Shown in pieces: positions 38,424 through 41,284 of a stretch of DNA of 64,000 nucleotides. This DNA comes from Fibrobacter sp. UWB13 (GTDB lineage: Bacteria > Fibrobacterota > Fibrobacteria > Fibrobacterales > Fibrobacteraceae). Within the stretch, counting starts at the first letter, position 1. Each line of letters opens with the position of its first letter. The stretch lies in assembly GCF_900177805.1 (NCBI RefSeq), contig NZ_FXAX01000001.1, forward strand, positions 124,001-188,000, given 5' to 3'. Made by a program: the position numbers and the translations under genes. Under the pieces are notes generated by a model, which was not told where the DNA came from, did no database searches, and worked only from the letters and a program-made list of their open reading frames with translations.

Positions 38424-39500
38424 TTATGCTCCAGCAGCCTCTAATCGCTGCACATGGCAGTAGGCGAGCTCTTTTGTTTTCTCGTCTCTGAGGTGCAGGC
38501 TGGAGCCTTCGCAGTATCGCCAGTACTTGCAGGTCTTGCAGTCGCCTATTTTAGCCCAACTGCGGTCGCGCATCACCTGATAGCGGTTTTGCCACACGTC
38601 CCAGAGGTCGTCTTTGTAGATGTTGCCTTGGATGTAGTCGCCGCGCAAGCTCGGGCATGCCGAGATGCTTCCGTCGCAAAGCACGGAAGAGACGTTTACG
38701 CCGGCGCGGCAGAAGAACGGGTAATTGCGAGCGTCTTTCTCGTAACTGCCGAGGAATCCTTCGCAGCCATAATTCACGTTGATCACGTTCATCGATTTTA
38801 CTTCGCGGATGAAGTCGAACACTTGGCGGAATTCCTGGTTCGTAAGTTGGAACAGCGGATTGTCCTTGGCGCGACCCTTCGGGAACACGGTTGCAATGCG
38901 CCAGCGCTTCACGCCGATTTTCAAAAGCAAGTCGAGAATTTTCGGGAGTTCCTTCAGGTTTTCGCGGTTCACGCAGGTCATCACGTCGAAGGTGAGCCCT
39001 TGCGTGTGGGCGGCCATGTCGATGGCGCGCAGCGCGCGTTCAAAGCTATGCGGGTCGCCGCGGAAATGGTTGTGGTTTGCTTCGAGACCGTCAAGACTGA
39101 TGGTAAGTGAGCGCAGCCCTGCGTTCAGGAGGCGCGAGTAGCGTTCGGGAGTCATCGCAAGACCGTTCGTGACCATGCCCCAGGGGTAGCCGCGTTTCTT
39201 GATTTCTTGGCCACATTCTTCGAGGTCCGGGCGCATCAACGGTTCGCCGCCGGTTATGACCACGATAAAGTGCTTCGGGTCGATGTGCGGGGCGAGCTTG
39301 TCGAGCACGTTCATAAAATCTTCGCGGGGCATGTCGGGGATGGCGTCCTTGACGCAGTCGCTACCGCAGTGCAAGCAATGCAAGTTGCAGCGGAGTGTGC
39401 ATTCCCAGAAAAAGTACGTGAGCGGGTGCGCCTTGATTTCGTTGTGGCGGTAAAGACGATAAGCTTCGAGAGCGAGTTTCTTTTTAAGCGAAAGTTGCAT
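38424..39500 (-). CDS. Radical SAM/SPASM enzyme of a lipoprotein-modification operon
   Basis: 358 aa; ATG at 39500 with AGGA upstream. ECTLRCNLHCLHC gives CxxxCxxC at C38, C42 and C45. GGEPLMRPDL, TNGLAM and ISLDG follow the radical SAM fold. The C-terminal SPASM region has C-rich elements (FFCRAGVN, SISACPSL, GDCKTCKYWRYCEGSS, AYCHVQ) for auxiliary clusters. It resembles the rSAM/lipoprotein-system family I know as TIGR04133, recalled from memory. It is last in an operon of three YGV-motif lipoproteins, 5 nt after the third, so they are its likely substrates. Confidence 0.85.
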   Translation of the reverse strand: MQLSLKKKLALEAYRLYRHNEIKAHPLTYFFWECTLRCNLHCLHCGSDCVKDAIPDMPREDFMNVLDKLAPHIDPKHFIVVITGGEPLMRPDLEECGQEIKKRGYPWGMVTNGLAMTPERYSRLLNAGLRSLTISLDGLEANHNHFRGDPHSFERALRAIDMAAHTQGLTFDVMTCVNRENLKELPKILDLLLKIGVKRWRIATVFPKGRAKDNPLFQLTNQEFRQVFDFIREVKSMNVINVNYGCEGFLGSYEKDARNYPFFCRAGVNVSSVLCDGSISACPSLRGDYIQGNIYKDDLWDVWQNRYQVMRDRSWAKIGDCKTCKYWRYCEGSSLHLRDEKTKELAYCHVQRLEAAGA

Positions 39501-39505
39501 AAATC

Positions 39506-40447
39506 CTAATAATTTTCTTTGGTGTAATATTTCTTGTTGAATTCGTTTCTGGTGTAGGTTGTTTTTTCGCCTTGCTTGTCGGTGCAAACCATATTGGTGT
39601 CGCCTTCGGTTCTGCGGCAAGTGACTCCGTCATTGCAGGTGTATTTATAAGTGCATTTTGAATCTACACCGTATTCGGGGCACATGGCGTCAAGATCGCA
39701 AACCGTCAGATCCGTGTTTGGGTTTGATGTTGCAAGGCATTCTTTGACGGTCTGCTCGATTTCTTTTAACTTGTCTTCGTAAATCTTTTGGCATTCCTCG
39801 TCAAGCGCGGGCTTGTTCTTTTCCCATTCATCTTTCATTTTCAGGTAATCGAGGTATTCCTGTGTGGGACGGGTAGTGCCGTCGCTGCAAACTTCGTCTT
39901 TGTGGAGTCTGACCGGAGCACCGTATAGCGCAACAAACATGTCGAGTTCCTGGCGCAAATTGGCAAGGCACTGCGGGACTGTTTGCAATGTATTTGAAAT
40001 GCTGTCGATTTTGCTAACGCTTGCGTGCTTTGCTTTTTCTTCAGCGTTCATCTTGGCAATATCGGCTGAATAACTCGGCGGGTAATACGATACAGTCGAA
40101 TCGCCGGGCGCGCAAGTTACTTCGCCGGCACTGGAGCTTGAATTTGCCAATTCGGAACTAGACGAAGATATGGCTTCGCTGGAACTTGACGAAACGCTTT
40201 CGCTGGAACTAGATTCGACGACGCTGCTGGAGCTTGGCACGTTAATCTCTGATGAACTGCTTGTTTCTGCTTCAGATGAGCTGTTTGCGAGTGCGTCAGA
40301 AGAACTGCTCTGTTCGAATTCGCCACAACCTTCTGGCGGGCAGTATACTCCATACAGGGGTTGTGCGTCGTCTACGTAGTGACACCCCGCCCAAAAGAAG
40401 GCGGTAGTCGTGAGTAAAAGATTTTTCCAATGCTTGCGAATGTTCAT
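39506..40447 (-). CDS. YGV-motif lipoprotein 3 (radical SAM partner)
   Basis: 313 aa. Leader MNIRKHWKNLLLTTTAFFWAGC with lipid Cys22, nearly the same as in the two upstream genes. The mature N-terminus has LYGVY, then about 70 residues of Ser-rich linker. A helical Glu/Lys domain with LYGAP follows, and the C-terminus has PEYGVD, eight Cys and TTYTRNEFNKKYY. Expected on the outer membrane or cell surface. The start overlaps the previous stop (ATGA). Confidence 0.8.
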   Translation of the reverse strand: MNIRKHWKNLLLTTTAFFWAGCHYVDDAQPLYGVYCPPEGCGEFEQSSSSDALANSSSEAETSSSSEINVPSSSSVVESSSSESVSSSSSEAISSSSSELANSSSSAGEVTCAPGDSTVSYYPPSYSADIAKMNAEEKAKHASVSKIDSISNTLQTVPQCLANLRQELDMFVALYGAPVRLHKDEVCSDGTTRPTQEYLDYLKMKDEWEKNKPALDEECQKIYEDKLKEIEQTVKECLATSNPNTDLTVCDLDAMCPEYGVDSKCTYKYTCNDGVTCRRTEGDTNMVCTDKQGEKTTYTRNEFNKKYYTKENY

Positions 40448-40809
40448 TCTGGTTCCTTTACATCATATTTTGTTTTAAATTCTGCTTCAGTGTAAGTCGT
40501 TTCGTGCTCTTGTTTGTCGTAGCAAGTAAAATCGGTTTGGTCTTCGTCCTTGTAACAAGATACGTCGTCATCGCACTTGTAATAAAATGTACACGGGTCG
40601 CGTCTGTAAAAGGTACACTTGGTCGAGTCTGGAGATTGGAAATCTTCAGGGTTTTCGCAAACATACATATCAACGCCATATTCTGGACATGCTCCACCCG
40701 AAAAGGTGCAGGTCCCTCTCACGTCGCTCGAAGAAACGTTGTCGCTACAGCCGTTCCAGAAGAATGCTGCGATGGCGAGAAAAATTTTTTTCCAGTGCTT
40801 GTAGAACAT
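40444..40809 (-). CDS. YGV-motif lipoprotein 2 (radical SAM partner)
   Basis: 121 aa. Leader MFYKHWKKIFLAIAAFFWNGC (Cys21). The mature part has PEYGVD, ten Cys in the short domain (CTFYRRDPCTFYYKCDDDVSCYK) and the shared ending TTYTEAEFKTKYD. The smallest of the three and the one closest to a minimal substrate. It starts 4 nt after the first lipoprotein gene. Confidence 0.8.
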   Translation of the reverse strand: MFYKHWKKIFLAIAAFFWNGCSDNVSSSDVRGTCTFSGGACPEYGVDMYVCENPEDFQSPDSTKCTFYRRDPCTFYYKCDDDVSCYKDEDQTDFTCYDKQEHETTYTEAEFKTKYDVKEPE

Positions 40810-40813
40810 GATT

Positions 40814-41284
40814 TTACTTGGTTTGGTTGGATGTTGTATTCTTATAGATTTTTTTGAATTCTGTATCGTCGTAGGTGAAACCGTCGTTGCATTCGTATTT
40901 TTTTATAAAGACATCTGCGTCTACACCGTAATCGGGGCATATTGTTGTGCCGTTAAATGTTTCACATGCAGGGGCGGAAACATGGATTGTATCAGTTTTG
41001 GCTATGCAGGTGTATCCGTTTTCGCAAGTGACTGTAGAACCGTTTTCGGAGGTGACTTCGCAATACATTTGCGGTACACCGTAGGCGGGCATAGGTAAGG
41101 GTTCGGAACTGCTAGATATATTATCTTCGCTACTGGAGCTTGAACTCAGTGTTTCTGAACTACTGGAATACTGTGGAGGGACTCCGTATAGGGGAGGTTC
41201 CACTGTGGTGGAACTGTTGTCACAACTAGCCCAGAAAAAACCGGTAATTGCAAGTGAAATCTTTTTCCAGTGTTTGTAAAACAT
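40814..41284 (-). CDS. YGV-motif lipoprotein 1 (first gene of the radical SAM operon)
   Basis: 156 aa; ATG at 41284 chosen for GAGGAG upstream and for the conserved leader MFYKHWKKISLAITGFFWASC (Cys21). Three YGV motifs: PLYGVPPQ, PAYGVPQM and PDYGVDAD. A short Ser-rich linker separates the first two; a Cys-containing domain and the tail FTYDDTEFKKIY follow. Confidence 0.8.
   Translation of the reverse strand: MFYKHWKKISLAITGFFWASCDNSSTTVEPPLYGVPPQYSSSSETLSSSSSSEDNISSSSEPLPMPAYGVPQMYCEVTSENGSTVTCENGYTCIAKTDTIHVSAPACETFNGTTICPDYGVDADVFIKKYECNDGFTYDDTEFKKIYKNTTSNQTK

Follow-up and report, generated by a model that had tools for sequence, protein, structure and literature searches.

A TIGR04133 Radical SAM/SPASM Enzyme Encoded with Three Xaa-Tyr-Gly Lipoproteins in Fibrobacter: A Candidate Splicease-like Maturase of Exported Proteins

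The Operon and Its Genes

The window analyzed here is a 64,000-nucleotide stretch of the Fibrobacter sp. UWB13 genome (contig NZ_FXAX01000001.1, positions 124,001 to 188,000). It includes an operon on the minus strand, composed only of three predicted lipoprotein genes, designated lipA, lipB, and lipC, and a gene for a radical SAM/SPASM enzyme of the TIGR04133 family. The intergenic gaps are, in this order, 4, -4 (an overlap), and 5 nt. This gene order, these gaps, and a length range of 121–313 aa for the lipoproteins had been given in the preliminary description, and the coordinates agree with them. The operon is real.

The lipA gene (40814..41284, minus strand, as are all features below) encodes a 156-aa predicted lipoprotein with a Ser-rich linker and three Xaa-Tyr-Gly (XYG) sites: PP-LYG-VPP (41183..41191), MP-AYG-VPQ (41078..41086), and CP-DYG-VDA (40925..40933). 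The 121-aa lipB product (40444..40809) has a Cys-rich domain and one site, CP-EYG-VDM (40675..40683). The 313-aa lipC product (39506..40447) consists of a Ser-rich linker, a middle part, and a Cys-rich C-terminal part, with three sites: QP-LYG-VYC (40349..40357), whose Tyr is the tenth residue past the predicted lipid Cys, VA-LYG-APV (39920..39928), and CP-EYG-VDS (39668..39676). The enzyme gene (38424..39500) encodes 358 aa and its product, which scores 625 bits against TIGR04133, is proposed below to act as a splicease on XYG sites. A second TIGR04133 locus in the same genome (G000:C1:845431) has a single 245-aa lipoprotein upstream, with the sites LYGVF, KYGVV, and LYGPP.

Leaders and Domains of the Predicted Lipoproteins

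The leaders of LipA, LipB, and LipC are MFYKHWKKISLAITGFFWASC, MFYKHWKKIFLAIAAFFWNGC, and MNIRKHWKNLLLTTTAFFWAGC, respectively. They fit the common pattern F/YKHWKK...AFFW.xC described previously, with the small correction that LipA has GFFW instead of AFFW. The signal-like leader ends in a non-classical lipobox, FW[AN][SG]C, and on the basis of this signal peptide the three proteins are putative lipoproteins. The motif TTYTxxEFxxKY, previously assigned to their Cys-rich C-terminal domains in general, is present in LipB and LipC; LipA has FTYDDTEFKKIY instead. A search of the same genome for the FFWxxC pattern returned the four known genes and no clear others.

None of the three proteins matched a Pfam or NCBIfam family above threshold. 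The preliminary description had recognized the system as the TIGR04133/TIGR04134 pair. The TIGR04134 half of this assignment fails: the profile (cut-off 39.8 bits) did not match LipA, LipB, or LipC at E ≤ 1, and they are rejected as members. It also found nothing over its cut-off in the whole genome. TIGR04134 does match the partners of other TIGR04133 enzymes, from Parabacteroides, Phocaeicola, Treponema, and two other Fibrobacterota genomes, with scores of 207, 139, 95, 86, and 44 bits.

On another contig of the same genome (C7), a protein with a KFW leader and a neighboring ORF (L152, 470-1543 and 1653-2369, minus strand) carry VYG sites. The contig yielded no TIGR04133 gene, and these proteins are possible substrates in trans.

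Enrichment and Conservation of Xaa-Tyr-Gly

The seven Tyr-Gly sites of the operon are LYGVP, AYGVP, and DYGVD in LipA, EYGVD in LipB, and LYGVY, LYGAP, and EYGVD in LipC. The repeated YGV(P/D) motif reported earlier for all three proteins fits five of the seven; the invariant part is XYG, and LipB contains just a single site.

In 133 non-redundant mature Fibrobacter proteins carrying the KHW leader, no other dipeptide is as enriched as YG, which occurs 354 times against a shuffled mean of 73 and maximum of 93. This enrichment is not due to chance. At least one YG is present in 125 of the 133 proteins and absent from the other eight. In 401 control ORFs taken from these loci, YG showed no excess (363 observed, 340 expected). 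The excess was weaker in two small controls, with 26 against 18 expected for 13 other lipoproteins, and 22 against 10 for 10 Ser-linked lipoproteins, where one 826-aa protein holds 12 of the 22; thus, other lipoproteins may also have a mild YG excess.

At the 354 Fibrobacter sites, the residue before Tyr is Leu in 163 (46%), Lys in 69 (19%), and Asp or Glu in 18% (32 and 31, respectively), with ten other residues making up the rest. The residue after Gly is Val in 183, Ile in 41, Cys in 33, Ala in 32, and Pro in 30. The Gly is as conserved as the Tyr. Some of the XYG occurrences may be left unmodified. Cys-directed thioether formation was considered and is unlikely, because the site is not consistently flanked by a Cys (YGC at just 33 of 354).

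Family and Phylogeny of the Enzyme

The enzyme matches TIGR04133 with 625.5 bits against a cut-off of 425 (residues 16-365 of P0001), so that its earlier assignment to this family, paired with exported XYG proteins, stands. It has a Radical_SAM domain (PF04055, 82.5 bits) and a SPASM domain (PF13186, 33.2 bits), and the CxxxCxxC and SPASM-region Cys residues are invariant in the enzyme alignment (A1). TIGR04133 is a hypothetical equivalog that carries no named reaction; it occurs in Bacteroidota, Treponema, and most of the sampled Fibrobacter genomes. The next-best NCBIfam models were TIGR04103, which we take to be equivalent to IPR026482 (145 bits, far below its cut-off of 725, and ahead only just), TIGR04053 (140 bits), and AhbD (137 bits). 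The enzyme is thus not a TIGR04103 member.

In the plasmid collection, the first match listed outside TIGR04133 was a Nostoc "nif11-class peptide radical SAM maturase 3". The enzyme is about 30% identical to this Nostoc TIGR04103 enzyme, whose Nif11 precursor ends with ALYGLPPELF. The end of the precursor, GGRGSIALYGLPPELF, is close to PPLYGVPPQ in LipA.

In a tree with MftC, NirJ, NirJ2, TIGR04053, and TIGR04347 as outgroups, sampled from matches of these searches, TIGR04133, TIGR04103, TIGR03913, and two TIGR04103-like enzymes form one clade (support 100/99, falling to 72/90 if three exceptionally long outgroup rows are retained). The sister group of TIGR04133 within this sample of SPASM enzymes is TIGR04103, the PlpX splicease family, together with TIGR03913. 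The radical SAM motif CxxxCxHCGS is present in 20 of 20 clade members and none of the 14 outgroups; Trp211 and a G[FY]xG..YE element, too, are largely common to clade members.

Further Tyr-Gly proteins were seen next to TIGR04103-like enzymes. On an Agathobacter plasmid, a short ORF upstream of such an enzyme (L133, 3710-3916) ends with PVMYGTGVRM. In two other Fibrobacter genomes, proteins with 14 and 21 YG, mostly as KYGYPC repeats (L149, 5228-6166 and L150, 5255-6457, both minus strand), adjoin a TIGR04103-like enzyme that bears a C-terminal extension. Their N-terminal domain weakly resembles chagasin (I42, E 0.0025-0.005, under the cut-off).

Proposed Reaction

The splicease PlpXY and its spliceotides were described by Morinaka et al. 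2018, as reported in PMC11002830, PMC10533398, and PMC10373908. According to PMC11002830 and PMC10533398, PlpX (IPR026482) cuts tyramine out at Xaa-Tyr-Gly and works on MYG/LYG without a RiPP leader. Tyramine excision of the PlpX type corresponds to a mass change of -135.08 Da at each site. A splicease survey (Scott et al. 2022, Chem 8:2659), as cited in PMC10373908, reports their wide distribution and protease inhibition. The preliminary description had called the modification uncharacterized; a literature search on TIGR04133 and TIGR04134 found no description of the system, and the survey by Scott et al. may cover TIGR04133. That description had missed the kinship with PlpX, which suggests a specific chemistry.

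It is fairly likely that the TIGR04133 enzyme matures exported proteins as a splicease-like radical SAM/SPASM enzyme. Judging from the family tree and the XYG sites of its partners, the enzyme probably cuts tyramine from the protein backbone.

A rather unlikely alternative is that the enzyme modifies Tyr-Gly by another chemistry: a Tyr-centered cyclophane, a mycofactocin-like oxidation or decarboxylation of Tyr, or epimerization. SPASM maturases of similar architecture perform many reactions, and conservation of XYG alone leaves the chemistry unfixed. The AlphaFold model of the enzyme, with an N-terminal helix and a mean pLDDT of 86.6, is closest among solved structures to SkfB and SuiB, then PqqE and BlsE, a resemblance to general SPASM folds only. 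Against this alternative, MftC falls outside the TIGR04133/TIGR04103 clade, and the Gly is conserved equally with the Tyr, as in the splicease motif. The three-residue cyclophane is disfavored in particular, because all seven sites of a deltaproteobacterial partner (L084, 5359-5946) are KYGG, and a cyclophane on Y-G-X3 requires a C-beta at the third residue.

Partners in Other Groups and Co-Occurrence

The partners of TIGR04133 enzymes from Bacteroidota, Treponema, the deltaproteobacterium, and across Fibrobacterota have XYG in common and little else. In all 11 Bacteroidales partners listed, XYG is located 7-10 residues past the lipid Cys. The distance is 12 residues in the Phocaeicola partner and in one other Fibrobacterota genome.

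These partners also bear on the reading that the enzyme targets another part of the lipoproteins, the Cys-rich domain or the lipobox, with XYG as a structural or binding motif. The Fibrobacter partners do keep both the Cys-rich domain and the KHW..FFW signal peptide. Neither, however, was seen in the Bacteroidota, Treponema, deltaproteobacterial, and T9SS-tailed partners, all of which have XYG. The Cys-rich domains emphasized earlier are thus not common to partners in other phyla, and action elsewhere is highly improbable.

After the hypothesis was formed, 17 further TIGR04133-type loci across the phylum were fetched as a check set, and 16 were scored, one contig being incomplete. In 16 of 16, across genera, an exported-looking protein with at least one XYG is encoded directly upstream; adjacent ORFs were read by eye and not blind, with at most two candidates per locus. 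Their combined 3,677 residues contain 35 YG, where the control rate predicts 7.9 (Poisson p ~1e-12, a value that ignores relatedness, many of these proteins being homologous). Several of them are not lipoproteins, and an automatic filter requiring a lipobox misses many. Therefore, the common feature of TIGR04133 partners is export plus XYG, not lipidation. Of two partners tested for a T9SS sorting domain, one was over the cut-off (25.2 vs. 23 bits) and the other just under (22.5).

The preliminary description had named such lipoproteins in genomes without the enzyme as evidence against it, and this check did not refute it. In the family, homologs of LipC were found in 59 of 68 enzyme-positive genomes and 1 of 33 enzyme-negative ones, counts that are uncorrected for phylogeny and include some incomplete genomes. 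Within the genus, the counts are 57/63 and 1/7. The sole enzyme-negative genome with a homolog is 71% complete, and a QYG site is present in the matching protein as well. Related SPASM enzymes also take part in heme and cofactor synthesis, yet this co-occurrence and the adjacent XYG proteins at the new loci make it less probable still that the association is of operon only, the enzyme maturing something other than the lipoproteins.

Two variants were also observed. In a divergent Fibrobacterota locus (L189, 2507-2911) and in Treponema (L128, 3622-4011), the residue before Tyr-Gly is the predicted lipid Cys itself. A second TIGR04133-like enzyme group (L114-L119, ~275 bits, under the cut-off) adjoins a Zn-ribbon-like protein that has a single (L/I)YGPPI site.

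Possible Role

As a splicease-like maturase, the enzyme would act in the cytoplasm on XYG sites prior to export, without PlpY or a Nif11 leader. Excision of tyramine would leave a reactive ketoamide, a group of the protease-inhibiting kind. The modified proteins would then be exported and mostly lipidated, and the lipoproteins may be displayed at the surface on their Ser-rich stalks. A role in protease inhibition is plausible. More speculatively, the ketoamides could serve as electrophilic protease traps, with specificity set by Xaa. The full proposal, that TIGR04133 enzymes make multi-site cell-surface alpha-ketoamide traps from lipoproteins and T9SS-tailed proteins, with specificity given by the residue before Tyr-Gly, is tentative and somewhat doubtful.

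If the proposed reaction is correct, TIGR04133 would gain a chemical function, which the literature searched does not describe. Gut and rumen bacteria, to which Fibrobacter belongs, would bear backbone-edited surface proteins containing beta-amino acids and reactive ketones. The family would also provide spliceases that need no separate partner protein, which would be useful in protein labeling.

Comparison with Known Systems

PlpXY is the closest characterized relative of TIGR04133 in the tree. Both are radical SAM/SPASM enzymes with the HCGS signature, and the XYG motif, with variable Xaa and possibly multiple sites per protein, is shared. PlpXY substrates are Nif11/NHLP-leader peptides, whereas TIGR04133 partners are exported proteins; no Pfam family of Nif11 or NHLP leaders was found in LipA, LipB, or LipC. 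The Fibrobacter operon, where the search for a PlpY/RRE partner gene was made, has no PlpY-like gene, and the enzyme is far below the TIGR04103 cut-off.

The NCBIfam pair TIGR04133/TIGR04134, both hypothetical equivalogs, shares with this operon an enzyme over the cut-off and a lipoprotein gene directly upstream. The operon differs in having three different lipoproteins, Ser-linked and Cys-rich, which do not match TIGR04134.

The GDL-motif/DUF1843 system (TIGR03913) belongs to the same clade, and one of its precursors carries PYGPAM. It differs in its short peptides without a signal peptide, and some have YA in place of YG. Next to a GDL-type enzyme, two DUF1843 peptides carry LYA and MYA, not XYG; thus, the clade relatives are not uniform.

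The three-residue cyclophane maturases and MftC are also SPASM enzymes modifying aromatic residues in ribosomal peptides. They are separated from the TIGR04133 system by the position of MftC outside the clade and by the KYGG sites, which lack the C-beta required for a cyclophane.
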